Assembly (NCBI RefSeq): GCF_002906165.1
Contig: NZ_PPCN01000006.1
Span: 124,001 to 188,000 of the forward strand
From: Roseibium marinum
GTDB taxonomy: Bacteria; Pseudomonadota; Alphaproteobacteria; Rhizobiales; Stappiaceae
Length of the DNA stretch: 64,000 nt
Direction: 5' to 3'
Part shown: piece by piece, positions 5,075-26,729 of the stretch
How the letters are laid out: the number at the start of each line of letters is the position of its first letter
Position numbering within the stretch: position 1 is the stretch's first letter
Position numbers and translations under genes: made by a program
The notes under the pieces: model-generated
Told to the model about the DNA's origin: nothing
The model's input: only the letters and a program-made list of their open reading frames with translations
Database searches by the model: none

Positions 5075-5937
5075 CAGGACCACGGCTCCGCTTTGGTGGC
5101 AGATGGGGAGGCCGGGGCGGATGCTGAACCGGAAGACGGAACCCAGTCGTGACCTTCCTCGAACCCGTCCCGCGCCCAGCGATAGAGCGCGTCATAGACG
5201 GTCATGCCGGCTTCAAGCTGCTTCACATCGTCCGAATATTGCCGCGACAGGCCGACCGAGACCGCCAGCAGGCCTGCCGCCTGGGGCGACAGATCGTGCC
5301 GGTTGGTGTCAGCCGCACGAATGACATCCGCCAGACGCTCCAGGGCCGCGCTCTTGAGCTCGAACGTCTCCAGCATCGTATCGAAGGTGCAGCACTCCCC
5401 GTGGTGCGAGAAATGAACGTTCTCGATGTCGAACGGCGTCGCGCCATAGCGGCTCGCCACGCCTTCCACCTCGACGGGGGACACGAACAGAAACCTTGCC
5501 TTAGGGTCGACAAACCGTCGGATCAGCCACGGGCAGGCGATACGGTCGATTTTCGGGCGGTGCCGTGTGACCCACAGCGTCGCGCCATCGACCGGCTCCG
5601 GGATCGATCCGGCGGGGATGCGCAGGGTTCCGGGCGTATCCCGCCACGCATACATGCCGCCGGACAGATATTCCGCCTGAACCCCTTCCGTGCGCAGCCA
5701 GGCGACAAGCCCCTGACTGAGCTTGATCCCGCGCTGGCAGGTGATGACGCAAGCCCTGCCGTCCAGCCGCTCGACAAGCCCGCGCTTGTCCGTATGCGGG
5801 TGCCGGAACGAGCCGGGGATGAAATACGGGTCTTCGTCGAAGTCCGGATCGATGGAAATATCGACGATCGCCGGGCAGTCCGGCGTACCGATCAGGCGCT
5901 GCAGATTGGAGATGGTGATTTCATTGGGGGCTGGCAT
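5074..5937 (-). CDS. chrB: Rhodanese-ChrB fusion, chromate resistance protein
   Basis: The 287-residue product has an N-terminal rhodanese-like domain (about 1-110, active-site-like CVITCQRGIKLSQG) and a C-terminal ChrB domain. The latter carries WVTRHRPKIDRIACPWLIRRFVD (here split: WVTRHRPKIDRI, then ACPWLIRRFVD) and FDIENVHFSHHGECCTFD. ChrB proteins are linked to chromate sensing or resistance and normally precede chrA. The start at 5937 is preferred because AAGGAG sits 7 nt upstream; a 7-residue extension is open. A low-complexity SGSASAPASPSATKAEP tail precedes the ATGA junction with chrA. Confidence 0.9.
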   Translation of the reverse strand: MPAPNEITISNLQRLIGTPDCPAIVDISIDPDFDEDPYFIPGSFRHPHTDKRGLVERLDGRACVITCQRGIKLSQGLVAWLRTEGVQAEYLSGGMYAWRDTPGTLRIPAGSIPEPVDGATLWVTRHRPKIDRIACPWLIRRFVDPKARFLFVSPVEVEGVASRYGATPFDIENVHFSHHGECCTFDTMLETFELKSAALERLADVIRAADTNRHDLSPQAAGLLAVSVGLSRQYSDDVKQLEAGMTVYDALYRWARDGFEEGHDWVPSSGSASAPASPSATKAEPWS

Positions 5938-21571: not shown

Positions 21572-21609
21572 TGCAGGTTCGGTGACATTTACATGAAGGT
21601 TTGGTGACA
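21572..21609 (-). promoter_or_regulatory. Pho-box-like array, four half-sites at 11-bp period
   Basis: On the plus strand TGCAG, TGACA, TGAAG and TGACA begin at 21572, 21583, 21594 and 21605, exactly 11 bp apart. On the minus strand these read TGTCAC-CAAA-CTTCATG-TAAA-type repeats. PhoB binds direct CTGTCAT-like heptamers spaced by 4 bp, an 11-bp period. The array lies 56 bp upstream of the phytase-like gene start. Confidence 0.65.
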
Positions 21610-21715
21610 CCTCTGGGCAGAAGCACCGGTCGGGGAATTTGTGTCGGCCTTCAACGCGCCATTGCGAATTCGGCAATGCCGTGAAACTGGCGGACTCCAC
21701 CGGTGGAAATGAACT

Positions 21716-22558
21716 TCAGGTTCCATTGAGAGCCATAATCTCATCCAGTCTGAGATCCTGCCTGATCAGCACCGCCCGGGCGAGCGTGCCGGCCTGCTTG
21801 AATCCGATGGAGCGATAAAGCCCGCCGGCCGGACTGTCCGGACCGGTCACGGAAATAAAGACATCCGGATCGAACCTGGAGAGCATGGCCCGGCAACTGA
21901 GCGCCACCATCATTTTTCCAAGGCCCTTGCCCTGATGCTGAGGATAGATCCAGACCTCCTGCAGCCGGGCACCGCCACCGGTATCCAGAAAGATACCCAT
22001 GTCGCCAACTTCCGCGCCAGCCAGGCGTAAAACAAACCAGTTTCCCCGTCCCTGCCTGGAAAGCGCCTTGAACTGCTGGAATTTATCCTGTTCAAAACGC
22101 TGTTTGAAATCCTGGTATTTCCCGGTGGCGAATGCCCTGATCCGGTTGTCCAGTATGCGCCGCCACTCAATGTCCTTCGAAACCGGCTCGATTAGGACGC
22201 CGCCTTCCCCGGGCACAGGCGCGATGTCCCGCGGACCGGCGCAGAAAACGGTCTCCCGGCCAATGGCGAAACCCCGTTGGATCAGTTCCTGTTCATGTTC
22301 CGTCCCCTGCCTGTCCTTCATCCAGCCGAAGGCAGTCGAAAAGGCCGCGGCTCTGCCGGGAAATACCATTTCATGCAGCCCGATCCAGGTCAGCGCCTTC
22401 GATTTCCGGGGAAGCGCCTCGAAGAGAAGAAAGTTCCCCCAAACGTGGTCGGGGTGAAGTCTTGACCTAACCGCATAGAACCCATCGTGTTTTTCAATTC
22501 CAAGCGTTGTGTTCAGGTCGATTTCGGATCGCCATCCGGGAGAAAATTCCTCATGCAT
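21716..22558 (-). CDS. GNAT-family acetyltransferase
   Basis: The protein has 280 residues from ATG 22558 (MHEEFSPGW); an upstream extension is open but hydrophobic and unlikely. The C-terminal GNAT fold is clear: GDMGIFLDTGGGARLQEVWIYPQHQGKGLGKMM (abbreviated family motif Q-x-x-G-x-G about residues 206-213), then VTGPDSPAGGLYRSIGF. The N-terminal half contains a further degenerate domain (HDGFYAVRSRLHPDHVWGNFLL) of the kind seen in two-domain acetyltransferases. It is divergent from the 22.6-26.5 kb modification cluster, with a 69-bp gap between the starts, and could be co-regulated. The substrate is unknown. Confidence 0.85.
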   Translation of the reverse strand: MHEEFSPGWRSEIDLNTTLGIEKHDGFYAVRSRLHPDHVWGNFLLFEALPRKSKALTWIGLHEMVFPGRAAAFSTAFGWMKDRQGTEHEQELIQRGFAIGRETVFCAGPRDIAPVPGEGGVLIEPVSKDIEWRRILDNRIRAFATGKYQDFKQRFEQDKFQQFKALSRQGRGNWFVLRLAGAEVGDMGIFLDTGGGARLQEVWIYPQHQGKGLGKMMVALSCRAMLSRFDPDVFISVTGPDSPAGGLYRSIGFKQAGTLARAVLIRQDLRLDEIMALNGT

Positions 22559-22627
22559 ACTTACAATTGTCTCCGATTGAACGCATACTAATATTACCCA
22601 AAGTAATTTTCGGTAGGATATTTTAAA

Positions 22628-22966
22628 ATGGCTGAAAAGATATCGCACTACGATTTAATCGCAAAAATTGCCATGAATGCCAAGTTGACAGCTGCGGAAG
22701 TTGAAGAAGCTCTTGAAGTACTAAGCGTCGTCATACAGTCAACGTTGCAGGAAGGCGGCTCCGTTGATCTTCTTGGTGTGGGAACTTTCACGGCCGAAGG
22801 TGATGAAAAGCGCAGGGAAGTCCACTTCAAGGTGGGAGAGAGCCTTGCGGAAATTGTTTCTGAGCCTTCCATAAAGGCTCGAATTGAACGCCAGCCAGGC
22901 ATTCTGTCGGGCACACTATTCTCTGTCGGCCCGGCCGACTTCGCGCACAAGGTCAACGTTTGCTAG
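22628..22966 (+). CDS. Small HU/IHF-like protein lacking DNA-binding arms
   Basis: The protein has 112 residues. The N-terminal 75 align by eye with HU/IHF: helix 1 HYDLIAKIAMNAKLT, helix 2 EVEEALEVLSVVIQSTLQEGG, then SVDLLGVGTFTAE in place of HU's V-LVGFGTFEV, and VHFKVGESLAEIV in place of P-FKAGKALKDAV. The long beta-ribbon arm that HU inserts in the minor groove is missing, so DNA binding is doubtful. A C-terminal extension of about 35 residues ends FAHKVNVC. It is the first gene of the cluster, 25 bp before the radical SAM gene. It may be a regulator, a scaffold, or the substrate of the modification enzymes; the last is inference. AGGA lies 10 nt before ATG. Confidence 0.75.
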   Translation: MAEKISHYDLIAKIAMNAKLTAAEVEEALEVLSVVIQSTLQEGGSVDLLGVGTFTAEGDEKRREVHFKVGESLAEIVSEPSIKARIERQPGILSGTLFSVGPADFAHKVNVC

Positions 22967-22991
22967 CAGCGACCAAGCAGAACCGTCAGAC

Positions 22992-24953
22992 ATGGGGGTG
23001 CCTGTGAAACCGCAACGACACCGCTTTGCGCCGAGCCGTTATCGCGTAACAGCCGCATTCGGAAACAAGATCGCCGTTTGGTCGACACGGACCGGATCCA
23101 TTGTCGAGCTGGACAAGGAGGATGCGGGTCACTTCGAAGACGGAACGCTGGACAAGATCAGCGGGCGTGTTATCGAAAATCTGCTTGAAGCTCGTCTCCT
23201 CGTCGATGGGGAAATCGACGAGCGCGATCTTGTGAACGCGGAAAACCGACAGGCGGCAGGCAACGATTCCGTTCTCGACATCGTGATCCTCCCGAGTTCG
23301 GATTGCGCATTGGGCTGCAATCTTGGCCAATTTGGCGCGTATTGCGGTCAAAAGCACGAAAAAGGCCGAATCCAGCCGAAATCGATTTCAGACATTGCGC
23401 AACTGGCCGATCGCTCCGTCCGGCCATGCCACACGCGCCTCAATGTCAACTGGTTCGGCGGTGAACCTTTGCTGGCTTTCGACCAGATGCGGCAAGTCAC
23501 GGCCTCACTGAAAGGCGTCGCCGCAAGACACGGTCTTGATTATGACGCGGCGCTCGTGACTGGCGGTCAGATGTTCACGCTTGATATCGCGCGCGAATGC
23601 CATGTTTCCCTGAACATCAGGTCCGTCAGCATCACACTCGACGGCCTGCCGGACGTCCACGACAAGCGCAGGTGCACCAAAGCCGGCCGGCCGACTTTTG
23701 AGCGCATCATGGGAAACATCCGCGCGGTGGCCGGCGACCTCGATCTGAACACATTGGCGCTCTCCATAAGGTGCAACATCGACAGGAGAAACGTGGAGAG
23801 TTTCGACCGGTTGATTGATTATTTTGTCGAACAGGGAATTCAGGACAGGATCGAATTCTATCCGGCGAACGTTCATCCCTGGGGTGCGATGAACAACCGC
23901 GACCTTTTCCTTGCACCTGACGAATTTGCAGCCAGGGAAATTGTCTGGTTGCGGAAACTCATCGCCACGGGATTTACCAGTCCCCGGCTACCGAAACGTA
24001 AACCGATCGTGTGCCGCGTGGTCTCCTCGTCGCACATTGTCGTCGGCCACGACGGCGAGGTTCACCGCTGTACGGAAACTCCCCTGACGCCGGTCAATCT
24101 TCCAAAGGACAGTTTGGGCAACGCCGGACTATGGCAGTCCATCGATCAGGTCCCCAGGTGGGATTGGCACGACCAGGTCGAGAACCGGCGCTTTCCCTGC
24201 GCCGAATGCGTCTATCTGCCGGTTTGCGGCGGCGCCTGCCCTTTGTCCTGGACGACAGGCTCCGATGTGCCCTGCCCTCCCTTCCGGTTCAATGGCTCTG
24301 AAAGATTGGCGGTATTCATGAAATCCGTTCAAGCGGCGAGGTCTGGAGAGGACCCCGGCACCGATCTTACGATCAAGAGTTTTTCCATTCCTGAAATTCT
24401 GCAATTGTCATCTCCGGACGAGACCGTGAAACGCGACGTCGCCGCGTTCCTGAGAACGCTGGAAACGATAAGAAAAACGACACCGCCTGATAGCTACGAG
24501 AGCTGTGCTGAAGACCTTGAGCTCGGTTCGATCAAGGTTCCCTCGCTCACAGACCCCTACCTCAAGAAACTCGCTCAATCCTGCAATCTGGCGACCGCCT
24601 CGTATCTCCATTACCTCGACGGCAATCTCGCGAGGCTGACGGATCTGACAGAAGCGAATTTGCGATTGCTGTCTGCCGCCCAGAGGCTTGAACCGAAGCG
24701 CGATTTGCGGCTTGCCCAGGTCCAGACGATCCTCAACCTCCTGGGAGGTCAGCTAAAGGGCTTCGGGCGAATTGATCAGGCGCTCGCACAGAGCCTGGAA
24801 GCGTATCTCATGGGTTCGGGATCGCTCCGCCTGCCGTTTGTCATCCTCCCGCGCATTCAACCCGGCCGGTATCCCGAAGCCGTGCTGTCAGGTGCCTTGG
24901 CTTCCGTTCAGGAAATCCTGTCGCATGCGCAACGGCCGGCCTGCCAACATTGA
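22992..24953 (+). CDS. Radical SAM/SPASM peptide-maturase-like enzyme with atypical cysteine motif
   Basis: The 653-residue product has an N-terminal recognition-like domain (about 10-90, SRYRVTAAFGNKIAVW ... GTLDKISGRVIENLLEARLLVDG). A radical SAM core follows (about 97-330) with WFGGEPLLAF. A SPASM domain holds Cys341, Cys360, Cys403, Cys406, Cys412, Cys416 and Cys428 (FPCAECVYLPVCGGACPLSW). A helical C-terminal part of about 190 residues is unassigned. The cluster cysteines are C105, C109 and C118, that is C-x3-C-x8-C instead of C-x3-C-x2-C; removing LGQFGA (111-116) restores the canonical spacing. The overall plan is that of enzymes that modify ribosomal peptides or protein partners. It lies between the HU-like gene and the hydroxylase gene, whose start is 1 bp after its stop. 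Confidence 0.87.
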   Translation: MGVPVKPQRHRFAPSRYRVTAAFGNKIAVWSTRTGSIVELDKEDAGHFEDGTLDKISGRVIENLLEARLLVDGEIDERDLVNAENRQAAGNDSVLDIVILPSSDCALGCNLGQFGAYCGQKHEKGRIQPKSISDIAQLADRSVRPCHTRLNVNWFGGEPLLAFDQMRQVTASLKGVAARHGLDYDAALVTGGQMFTLDIARECHVSLNIRSVSITLDGLPDVHDKRRCTKAGRPTFERIMGNIRAVAGDLDLNTLALSIRCNIDRRNVESFDRLIDYFVEQGIQDRIEFYPANVHPWGAMNNRDLFLAPDEFAAREIVWLRKLIATGFTSPRLPKRKPIVCRVVSSSHIVVGHDGEVHRCTETPLTPVNLPKDSLGNAGLWQSIDQVPRWDWHDQVENRRFPCAECVYLPVCGGACPLSWTTGSDVPCPPFRFNGSERLAVFMKSVQAARSGEDPGTDLTIKSFSIPEILQLSSPDETVKRDVAAFLRTLETIRKTTPPDSYESCAEDLELGSIKVPSLTDPYLKKLAQSCNLATASYLHYLDGNLARLTDLTEANLRLLSAAQRLEPKRDLRLAQVQTILNLLGGQLKGFGRIDQALAQSLEAYLMGSGSLRLPFVILPRIQPGRYPEAVLSGALASVQEILSHAQRPACQH

Positions 24954-24954
24954 G

Positions 24955-25470
24955 ATGGGTGCGGATATGCTAAATCGCGTAGCCGCCGAGCTGTATTGGG
25001 GCCGGATCTTCGATCCCGGTCTCTCAGCACGGATTGCGGATCTCGCGACCTCTTTCTCAGACTATGAACGGGACAGGGGAGCCAATCCCGTCGGTGAGGA
25101 TTTCCGGATTTCGGAACATCCCGGCATCTTCAGCCTGTACCGGACGCAGGAAGACTTCATTCGAGAAACCATACTTGAAACGGCGAATACGCGGCCTCTG
25201 ACACCGCAAACCCCCTATATCGCACGCTATCTGCCCGGTCCGCGCGGTGGGCTTGATATGCATGCCGACAACAGCGCCTGGACGCTCATCTGGTATCTGA
25301 ACGGCAATTTTTCAGGTGGTGAGCTGATGTTTCCGACCTTGGGCGTGTCGTTGAAGCCACGCGCAGGAATGGCAGTGATGTTCCCCGGAGGAGTGCTTTA
25401 CCCACATGCCTCCGCTCCTGTTGCAAAAGGATGCAAGCTTGCCATGGTCATTATGGTGGATCGAAAATGA
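24955..25470 (+). CDS. 2OG-Fe(II) oxygenase, prolyl-4-hydroxylase-like
   Basis: This 171-residue non-haem iron hydroxylase shows the facial triad and 2-oxoglutarate residues in the right order: His103 and Asp105 (DMHADNS), His151 (YPHASAPV) and Lys161 (GCKLAMV), the H-x-D...H-x9-K pattern of P4H-like enzymes. WTLIWYLNGNFSGGELMFP and KPRAGMAVMFPGG are family blocks. An alternative ATG at 24967 would remove four residues. It starts 1 bp after the radical SAM stop and overlaps the next gene by ATGA, so all three enzymes are co-translated. Hydroxylation of a peptide or protein side chain is the natural guess. Confidence 0.9.
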   Translation: MGADMLNRVAAELYWGRIFDPGLSARIADLATSFSDYERDRGANPVGEDFRISEHPGIFSLYRTQEDFIRETILETANTRPLTPQTPYIARYLPGPRGGLDMHADNSAWTLIWYLNGNFSGGELMFPTLGVSLKPRAGMAVMFPGGVLYPHASAPVAKGCKLAMVIMVDRK

Positions 25471-26504
25471 CAGGGAAATCCAGCGAGATTTCAGTACCGG
25501 AGCTATCGAGTTATCTCGCGTTGCACTGCCATGAAACCGCATACAGATTCGAAACGCTAATTGGCGCATATCTTTCGTCCGGGTCGGAAAACCAGACTGG
25601 GGAAATCGCCTCCCAAAACCCGTCAAAAGCCGACGCGGACCTGCTTTCTCGGCGGATCAAGGCGGAACGGCTTCTCGATGGAATTCCGAAATATATAGAC
25701 AATTACATGCTGACGCTTTTGGCCGCCCGACACCCACTCGAGCGGTTCGACCGGAGCATTTTACGATCCTATATAGGAAATCTGACGGCTCCCTCGCCGC
25801 GTTTCGTCTCCTGGAAGGACAGGCAAGCCGATCTTCGCGATCTCACCGCGAATGAGGTCCCGGGGACCGAATGGGACAAAGCGGCGCTCTTGAGCAGTCA
25901 AGGCGCGAGCGATGTTCTTAAATGGCGCGATGTGCCGGTATTCAAGCCCGCCAGCGACATGATGATCTACGCCATGCTCCTGTTCGAACTGAAACCGGCC
26001 ACGATCGTCGAATTCGGTACGGGACATGGAGGATCTACAGGTTTCATGTCCGATCTGGCCCAGCTTTTCGGCCTGGACTGCGATCTCCATTCCGTGGACC
26101 GAACCGGAAAAGTTCCCGAAGGCTTTCACACCAATGCCAAACACCATATTGCCGATTGCCTGCAATGGGTGCGTGATGAGCTGCCGAAGCTTCGCTTGGC
26201 CCGGCCATGCCTCTTCATTGAAGACTTTCATGAAAAAACCGATGATTTTCTGAACCTGCTTGTCCCCAACCTGGACGTTGGCGACTATCTGGTGATTGAA
26301 GACAGCTTCATCAAACAAGCAGCGCTCGACCGTTTCCTGAGGGAACACACTGAAGTTCTCATCGACACCTTCTACACGGATTTCTTCGGAGTGAACTGCA
26401 CCTCGGCCGTCAACAGCATACTGAGCGTGCAATCGGAGATGACCCGTTCGCCTTCTTCAACCTCTTCCAAGTCCCAGACGACGCAAGGCGGTCGACCTGG
26501 ATAA
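25467..26504 (+). CDS. CmcI-like SAM-dependent methyltransferase/hydroxylase-family protein
   Basis: The protein has 345 residues from the ATG that overlaps the preceding stop. An N-terminal helical part (about 1-140) precedes a CmcI/cephalosporin-hydroxylase-type Rossmann domain: KPASDMMIYAMLLFELKPAT, cofactor loop IVEFGTGHGGSTGF (about 180-193), DLHSVDRTGKVPEGF and GDYLVIEDSFIK. Despite the historical name, CmcI-like proteins are SAM-dependent O-methyltransferase folds. It is the last gene of the modification cluster and is followed 30 bp later by a very strong hairpin. The tail MTRSPSSTSSKSQTTQGGRPG is low complexity. Confidence 0.85.
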   Translation: MTGKSSEISVPELSSYLALHCHETAYRFETLIGAYLSSGSENQTGEIASQNPSKADADLLSRRIKAERLLDGIPKYIDNYMLTLLAARHPLERFDRSILRSYIGNLTAPSPRFVSWKDRQADLRDLTANEVPGTEWDKAALLSSQGASDVLKWRDVPVFKPASDMMIYAMLLFELKPATIVEFGTGHGGSTGFMSDLAQLFGLDCDLHSVDRTGKVPEGFHTNAKHHIADCLQWVRDELPKLRLARPCLFIEDFHEKTDDFLNLLVPNLDVGDYLVIEDSFIKQAALDRFLREHTEVLIDTFYTDFFGVNCTSAVNSILSVQSEMTRSPSSTSSKSQTTQGGRPG

Positions 26505-26534
26505 AATGAGCTCAATAGCCGCAAATTCTTGCAA

Positions 26535-26573
26535 GATTGCCTCCGGCGCGCCAAAGGCGCGCCGGAGGCAATC
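26535..26573. terminator. 18-bp perfect hairpin closing the modification cluster
   Basis: GATTGCCTCCGGCGCGCC and GGCGCGCCGGAGGCAATC pair over 18 bp with an AAA loop. No U-tract follows, so it may act as a processing or protective stem, a factor-dependent terminator, or a dispersed repeat and not a classical terminator. Confidence 0.55.
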
Positions 26574-26729
26574 GCCGGTTCACACCAGAAAAACCCGGTC
26601 CACGCCGGAAAAACAATGGGCCTCCGCAAGTAGCGTCTGGACATCCAGCCAATAGCCCCTATGGTAGGATGTTCCCAATTTGTGGCGTCACCTTTCTCCT
26701 CGAACGCTGCCCTTTTTTCGGATTTTCAT

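Follow-up and report, generated by a model that had tools for sequence, protein, structure and literature searches.

A stretch of 64,000 nt from Roseibium marinum (assembly GCF_002906165.1, contig NZ_PPCN01000006.1, positions 124,001-188,000 of the forward strand), hereafter referred to as the window, was found to carry a compact cassette of five genes. These encode a GNAT acetyltransferase, a small HU-like protein, a radical S-adenosylmethionine (SAM) enzyme with a SPASM domain, a prolyl-4-hydroxylase (P4H)-like oxygenase, and a CmcI-like methyltransferase. The best reading of these sequences is a modification cassette resembling those of ribosomally synthesized and post-translationally modified peptides (RiPPs), with the HU-like protein in the place of the precursor. 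It probably modifies a small protein in unusual ways, the likely target being an odd relative of HU. The combination of a radical SAM enzyme, an Fe(II)/2-oxoglutarate (Fe/2OG) oxygenase, and a small protein is known in kind. An HU-like protein in the precursor slot, a CmcI-like partner, and a CX3CX8C cluster motif have no counterpart in the further radical SAM loci that were examined.

Composition and insertion of the cassette

The gene of the HU-like protein (112 aa; positions 22628-22966 of the window, forward strand) is followed, after a gap of 25 bp between its stop codon and the next ATG, by that of the radical SAM/SPASM enzyme (653 aa; 22992-24953, forward strand). The stop codon of the latter (24951-24953) lies 1 bp before the ATG (24955) of the P4H-like gene (171 aa; 24955-25470, forward strand), whose own stop codon (25468-25470) overlaps the ATG (25467) of the CmcI-like gene (345 aa; 25467-26504, forward strand) in an ATGA sequence. 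The 1-bp gap and the overlap suggest that the three enzymes are co-translated. The GNAT gene (282 aa; 21716-22564, reverse strand) diverges 63 bp upstream of the HU-like gene; its GTG start was chosen in this analysis, and a longer open reading frame (ORF) extending to 22648 is also open. All five ORFs of the cassette were open and of full length.

The five genes occupy an insert of 5.1 kb (21609-26712). The flanking sequences aligned up to about position 21608 and from about position 26713 in all four same-genus relatives examined, where the cassette was absent and the two flanks lay 105-217 bp apart at the empty site. The GNAT gene and the four genes were therefore regarded as a single unit. 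The GC content at third codon positions was 0.53-0.67 inside the insert, compared with 0.80 and 0.83 in two flanking genes. Horizontal acquisition of the cassette is part of the explanation favoured below.

A preliminary description of the locus had listed the four forward genes in this order, with the 1-bp gap and the ATGA overlap, and the ORF coordinates confirmed it, as the profiles PF00216, TIGR04463 with TIGR04085, PF13640, and PF04989 confirmed the four family identities. Position 26573, where it ended the cluster, proved to be the end of an inverted repeat after the CmcI-like gene and not the end of a gene. Of the two accessories it had suggested, the GNAT gene was retained, as it lies inside the insert and was found at E<=1e-15 in its own genome only among 45 genomes of the genus. 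The other, a major facilitator superfamily (MFS) exporter gene, was dropped from the system because it is common in the genus (15 of 16 same-genus genomes sampled, its own included, and none of ten others) and is located outside the insert.

Besides the HU-like gene, the small ORFs in the insert were mostly overlapping or antisense frames. A 49-aa ORF (26506-26655, forward strand), an alternative small-peptide candidate without support, starts 1 bp past the CmcI-like stop codon and spans the inverted repeat, which is perfect, with 18-bp arms and a 3-nt loop (26535-26573), and may mark the end of the transcript. The repeat was not among the terminator-like sites found in a scan, and its assignment to a genomic repeat family was rejected, as the exact copy here is the only one in the 6.06-Mb host genome.

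The HU-like protein and the modifying enzymes

The HU-like protein belongs to the HU family by profile (PF00216, E=4e-10; 40.2 bits against a cutoff of 22.4). Its N-terminal half superposed on solved HU structures with a root-mean-square deviation of ~1.4 Å over ~51 residues, with a best Foldseek E-value of 2e-3 and none below 0.001. In an AlphaFold2 (AF2) model, residues 7-55, which form the HU dimerisation half, had a predicted local distance difference test score (pLDDT) of 62-77 per block; residues 55-112 fell below 50, which is suggestive only, the alignment holding seven sequences and a control prediction of an ordinary HU being absent. The DNA-binding features of the family have been lost: the RNPxTG motif of the DNA-binding arm is replaced, and the isoelectric point (pI) is 5.0 with a net charge of -6, compared with a pI of 9.3-10.9 in all ten ordinary HU comparators. 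A role as a nucleoid protein is unlikely. The sole cysteine is the last residue. A search of 289 genomes of the class at E<=1e-5 recovered five HU-like relatives besides those of the own genome, all of them ordinary HU proteins with RNPxTG; at E<=1e-3, neither phage nor plasmid records contained a match. The own genome has one further HU match, which proved to be an ordinary HU gene.

Pfam, NCBIfam, and PHROGs scans of the radical SAM enzyme were made with a longer ORF (TTG start at 22884, 689 aa), and later analyses with the 653-aa form starting at ATG 22992. The enzyme matched TIGR04463 at E=1.7e-52, and the geopeptide and CefB maturase profiles of NCBIfam also matched, each below its cutoff. 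The SPASM profile TIGR04085 was matched above cutoff (32.4 bits against 27, E=9e-8). The SPASM cysteines C341, C360, C403, C406, C412, C416, and C428 were invariant in the aligned relatives, and the WFGGEP and TLDG motifs were retained. The solved relatives recovered by profile included 5wgg (which we take to be CteB), ChlB, 8vpo (TigE), anSME, 5v1q (SuiB), and SkfB. Similarly, a fold search of the AF2 model was led by 5why/5wgg, SuiB, anSME, and TigE, with E-values down to 1e-12 and TM-scores of only 0.3-0.6. The nearest matches by profile and by fold were mostly peptide or protein maturases.

The AF2 model of this enzyme was built from four aligned sequences. Its barrel had fair to good confidence, and residues 107-123 had low confidence. 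Strands and helices were modelled at residues 12-89, with a block pLDDT of 67-88 for residues 11-80 and 50 for residues 81-90. This N-terminal beta/winged-helix-like region (residues ~10-90; 23019-23261) may bind a leader peptide in the manner of a RiPP recognition element. A C-terminal extension (residues ~455-653; 24354-24953), modelled as mostly helical at low confidence, was absent from six aligned relatives. It might correspond to a separate neighbouring protein of the relatives, although it had no sequence similarity to five such proteins.

The cluster motif of the enzyme is C105-X3-C109-X8-C118 (23304-23345), with six more residues than the CX3CX2C expected for the radical SAM superfamily. 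The expected spacing was present in all 35 readable relatives among the 36 loci described below (the remaining locus, L009, had no match at the cutoff). Additionally, the (T/S)N(G/A) motif, with a middle asparagine in all 34 readable relatives, is TGG in the window. The Pfam Radical_SAM profile did not match the 689-aa ORF at E<=1, while both tested relatives did match. CX3CX8C may be a spacing out of the ordinary, or it may mark the enzyme as dead. Altered spacings are known from other radical SAM enzymes, with CX2CX4C, CX5CX2C, and CX14CX2C given in passages of PMC4389238 and Cx7Cx2C in passages of PMC5682303; in none of the examples in these passages is the second cysteine separated from the third by eight residues.

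The P4H-like protein matched PF13640 (E=5e-9) and the P4H structures 3itq/5hv0 (E=7e-6). It retains the HxD...H motif and a basic residue (H103-x-D105, H151, and K161), where H103, D105, and H151 are presumably the iron ligands and K161 the basic residue for 2OG. The CmcI-like protein matched PF04989 (50.7 bits against a cutoff of 23.2, E=2.4e-13) and, over residues 149-311, the CmcI structure 2br3 (E=3e-18), with the acidic motifs FI(E/D)D and IED kept; these motifs we take to be the metal site. It is placed as a member of this family of SAM-dependent O-methyltransferases, and its activity is predicted. Matches to it were found in three of 385 genomes of the class, the own genome included, and a match to the P4H-like protein was found in one plasmid record. 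A similarity of the CmcI-like N-terminus to an ORF in the same-genus locus L027 (E=8e-7) was put down to chance, because the matched part is not in the methyltransferase domain, the ORF looks non-coding, and phmmer did not repeat the match. The GNAT protein matched PF13508 (E=1.6e-7) and PF00583 (E=6.5e-6).

Related loci and gene neighbourhoods

The gene contexts of related enzymes were compared in 36 radical SAM loci of 3.5-18 kb each, using ORFs of at least 45 aa and phmmer at E<=1e-3; all neighbourhoods were taken from fetched loci. The best six matches by E-value were from a Bacteroidetes metagenome-assembled genome (MAG; 35% identity over the aligned part in BLASTP), a plasmid of Rhizobium etli IE4803 (34%), the genomes G058 (33%), G1317 (36%), and G037 (32%), and Streptomyces NBC_01281 (31%). 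A small cysteine-containing ORF was found within ~150 bp upstream in five of these six loci, and consisted of 77 aa in R. etli, 72 aa in G1317, and 33 aa with a C-terminal cysteine in Streptomyces; those of G037 and G058 carry GCDSGC repeats. In the MAG, the gene upstream of the radical SAM gene appeared by eye to encode a peptidase. The HU-like gene occupies this upstream slot in the window.

R. etli (L060:7674-12976) and G1317 (L138, G1317:C1:1532500-1550000) share a conserved, RiPP-like operon of six genes, which encodes a small protein with the motif FVDFNSGCG, a radical SAM enzyme, a protein of ~350 aa in which an HExxH motif was recognised by eye, a JmjC oxygenase, a ~300-aa protein, and a GNAT protein. 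The ~350- and ~300-aa proteins had no Pfam hit in R. etli. Both operons thereby unite a precursor, a radical SAM enzyme, an Fe/2OG oxygenase, and a GNAT protein. The CefA/CefB cluster of Methylomagnum (L062) also contains a 2OG oxygenase, which is related to the P4H-like protein of the window. The maturase matches, the small cysteine-containing ORFs in five of the six best loci, and the JmjC and GNAT genes of the two rhizobial operons support the proposal in the preliminary description of a RiPP or protein-modification cassette. Against it, half of the outcome that the description had named as refuting, homologues of the four genes scattered without a shared neighbourhood, was observed: the complete set was found nowhere else, and the 36 loci contained no HU-like, CmcI-like, or GNAT relative and a single P4H-like one.

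Searches for closer copies yielded distant relatives. An exact-peptide-pattern scan of genome contigs recovered one relative at 35% identity, the best plasmid match was 34% identical over 67% of the query, and a radical SAM search of 87 genomes of the family, 397 of the order, 398 of the phylum, and 361 of a second family gave a best match of 38%. Seven distant radical SAM matches were found in phage records (22-32% identity), and the PHROGs hits were to broad families. A phage origin was rejected, as no HU-like phage match was found at E<=1e-3 and the radical SAM phage matches are distant. A defence system was also set aside, PADLOC giving no more than a weak pVip match to the radical SAM enzyme (E=0.005) and a match to a 2OG profile of generic kind (E=2e-12). 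Among the matches listed in the open-licence PMC literature, judged from titles and abstract openings, no HU-type leader was found, and the matches listed there for TIGR04463 made no mention of that family. One paper, PMC7343975, contains the terms 'HU domain', 'RiPP', and 'radical SAM' once each.

Several further observations were made in these loci. The R. etli operon lies near genes annotated as a cyclase, a cyclic-nucleotide-binding/TIR-like protein, and a phospholipase D-like protein. In two same-genus genomes, putative precursors encoded upstream of radical SAM genes (L027:9891-10268, reverse strand; L028:7585-7986, forward strand) share a leader-like sequence VAKLLADAQVGIGAALK and GCDSGC repeats, and neither had an NCBIfam match at E<=0.1. 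On a Streptomyces plasmid (L064:6570-6671), an unannotated 33-aa ORF ending in LNGNC precedes genes for a radical SAM enzyme, a methyltransferase, a SagB-type protein, and an MFS protein. The Sinorhizobium meliloti plasmid pAK76 (L082:1973-8313) carries what is possibly a RiPP cluster, with a flavoprotein, a long radical SAM protein, a 72-aa ORF, a 2OG oxygenase, and a cupin-like protein; an unannotated ORF that looks oxygenase-like by eye (5197-5796) precedes the annotated 2OG oxygenase. The Bacteroidetes MAG encodes a second radical SAM-like protein (L001:11187-12284, reverse strand), apparently without the cluster motif by eye, which may be a pseudo-radical SAM partner. In G512 (L079:3491-10944), a P4H-like gene overlaps one encoding a TPR-CmcI fusion, amid apparent genes of TPR proteins.

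Proposed pathway, alternatives, and known systems

The explanation we tentatively favour, at slightly less than an even chance, takes the HU-like protein as the precursor of this cassette and its tail as the part that is modified. The sequences themselves establish which genes are present and in what order, their single insertion, the families of the enzymes, the loss of the DNA-binding signature of HU, and the place of the HU-like gene in the precursor slot. We infer the docking, the modified region, all of the reactions, and the order of steps as follows. The HU-like protein would be made first. Its folded, HU-type N-terminal half would act as the leader and be recognised by the radical SAM enzyme through docking on that enzyme's N-terminal beta/winged-helix domain. 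The unstructured tail (approximately residues 56-112), ending in the sole cysteine, would be the modified part. On this tail, the radical SAM/SPASM enzyme would generate a carbon-centred radical leading to a cross-link or a thioether. The P4H-like oxygenase would introduce a side-chain hydroxyl for the CmcI-like enzyme to O-methylate, the two forming a pair like CmcJ and CmcI of cephamycin. The GNAT protein may acetylate the product as a tailoring step, or may provide self-protection or immunity.

The boldest form of this proposal is an HU fold turned leader or carrier, in which an acidic HU homologue that does not bind DNA offers its tail to a CX3CX8C enzyme and then to a hydroxylase/O-methyltransferase pair installing a methoxy group. 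It is judged somewhat unlikely. If true, the HU fold would join a small group of folded proteins that have become RiPP leaders, a radical SAM enzyme would be added whose cluster motif has a widened gap from its second cysteine to its third, and peptide methoxylation by a P4H/CmcI pair would be described. If only the general reading holds, the locus would represent one more unusual RiPP-type cassette.

A number of observations weigh against a precursor role and a joint pathway. The insert contains no protease or exporter, and promoter- and terminator-like sites were no commoner than in shuffles. The radical SAM enzyme (689-aa ORF) scored 178.7 bits with TIGR04463 and did not reach the cutoff of 525; the five relatives scanned were also under it, with 162-213 bits. 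The HU-like protein had no similarity to the precursors of the two relatives compared and lacks their cysteine-rich core. Across the 36 loci, no match was found to the HU-like, CmcI-like, or GNAT protein of the window, and one to the P4H-like protein. Nine CmcI contexts (seven from plasmids and two from genomes, judged from annotation names or BLAST) included two with an adjacent 2OG oxygenase, namely a JmjC protein in Scytonema and a P4H-like protein in G512; in a third, that of Bradyrhizobium 62B, a TauD-type gene lies ~2.8 kb away. The full four-gene set is therefore a singleton among the loci examined, so that the HU-like protein is assigned its putative substrate role by its operon position.

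The substrate may instead be another peptide or a small molecule, with the HU-like protein as a regulator or accessory chaperone, an explanation that is doubtful but deserves serious weight. The 49-aa ORF after the CmcI-like gene is a candidate for such a further small product of the cassette. None of the 36 loci included an HU-like protein, proteins of this kind ordinarily bind DNA, and the substrate of CmcI and CmcJ is a small molecule according to passages of PMC6097109. The 25-bp distance of the HU-like gene from the radical SAM start, compared with the tighter packing of the enzyme genes, would also fit. However, the HU-like protein has lost both the DNA-binding signature and the positive charge, a small ORF lies in the same slot in most of the best-matching loci, and by both profile and fold comparisons the radical SAM enzyme falls with the peptide maturases.

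Decay of the cassette was regarded as unlikely. The radical SAM enzyme may be inactive because of its aberrant motif spacing, with six extra residues, and the change of TNG to TGG, in which case the remaining genes would be relics or would carry out only hydroxylation and methylation. The uniformity of the relatives in both motifs, the missing Pfam Radical_SAM match, and the presence of the cassette in a single genome in the searches made are consistent with such a decay. The five open reading frames, the intact SPASM cysteines, and the retained WFGGEP and TLDG motifs argue against it, as do the altered spacings of other radical SAM enzymes (in passages of PMC4389238 and PMC5682303). An assembly of chance neighbours, acquired separately and without a joint function, would fit the restriction of the complete set to one locus and the distant relatives found for single genes. 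It is very improbable given the common insertion, the likely co-translation suggested by the 1-bp gap and ATGA overlap, and the partial recurrence of two subsets, one of radical SAM, Fe/2OG oxygenase, and GNAT genes and the other of P4H-like and CmcI-like genes.

Comparison with known systems places the proposed precursor cassette among several partial likenesses. In the proteusin (NHLP) and Nif11 leader RiPPs, the leader derives from a folded housekeeping protein, and they resemble the proposed HU-derived leader in this respect while having different folds. The closest operons are those of R. etli plasmid pRetIE4803b (IE4803_PB00015-PB00010) and G1317, which share with the window a small protein, a radical SAM/SPASM enzyme (34 and 36% identical), an Fe/2OG oxygenase, a GNAT protein, and a compact arrangement. 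They differ in that the small protein carries FVDFNSGCG and is not an HU protein, the oxygenase is of the JmjC and not the P4H type, a CmcI-like protein is absent, the cluster motif is the canonical CX3CX2C, and the ~350-aa HExxH (by eye) and ~300-aa proteins have no counterpart in the window. The TIGR04463/Cys-every-fifth (CefA/CefB) systems are among the best profile matches, and that of Methylomagnum also includes a 2OG-Fe(II) oxygenase; the window falls well short of the profile cutoff (178.7 against 525 bits), lacks a cysteine-rich precursor, and has an altered cysteine motif.

In biphenomycin clusters, passages of PMC12707348 describe a radical SAM enzyme together with JmjC and HExxH-type 2OG hydroxylases. 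Since these clusters hold both hydroxylase types, RiPP operons that mix radical SAM enzymes with hydroxylases are of an established kind. The window shares with them a putative radical SAM cross-linker and Fe/2OG hydroxylation on a ribosomal precursor. It differs from them in the B12-dependent radical SAM enzyme, the MNIO, the arginase, and the TldD-type protease found there, and in its HU-like and CmcI-like proteins, neither of which appears in those passages. The CmcI/CmcJ pair acts on a beta-lactam, and the oxygenase of the window is P4H-like and the N-terminal ~148 aa of its CmcI-like protein lie outside the match. Nevertheless, hydroxylation followed by methylation is described for cephamycin in passages of PMC6097109, and the predicted sequence of a 2OG-dependent hydroxylation and a methylation by a CmcI-family enzyme, with its match to 2br3 (E=3e-18), resembles what is proposed there.

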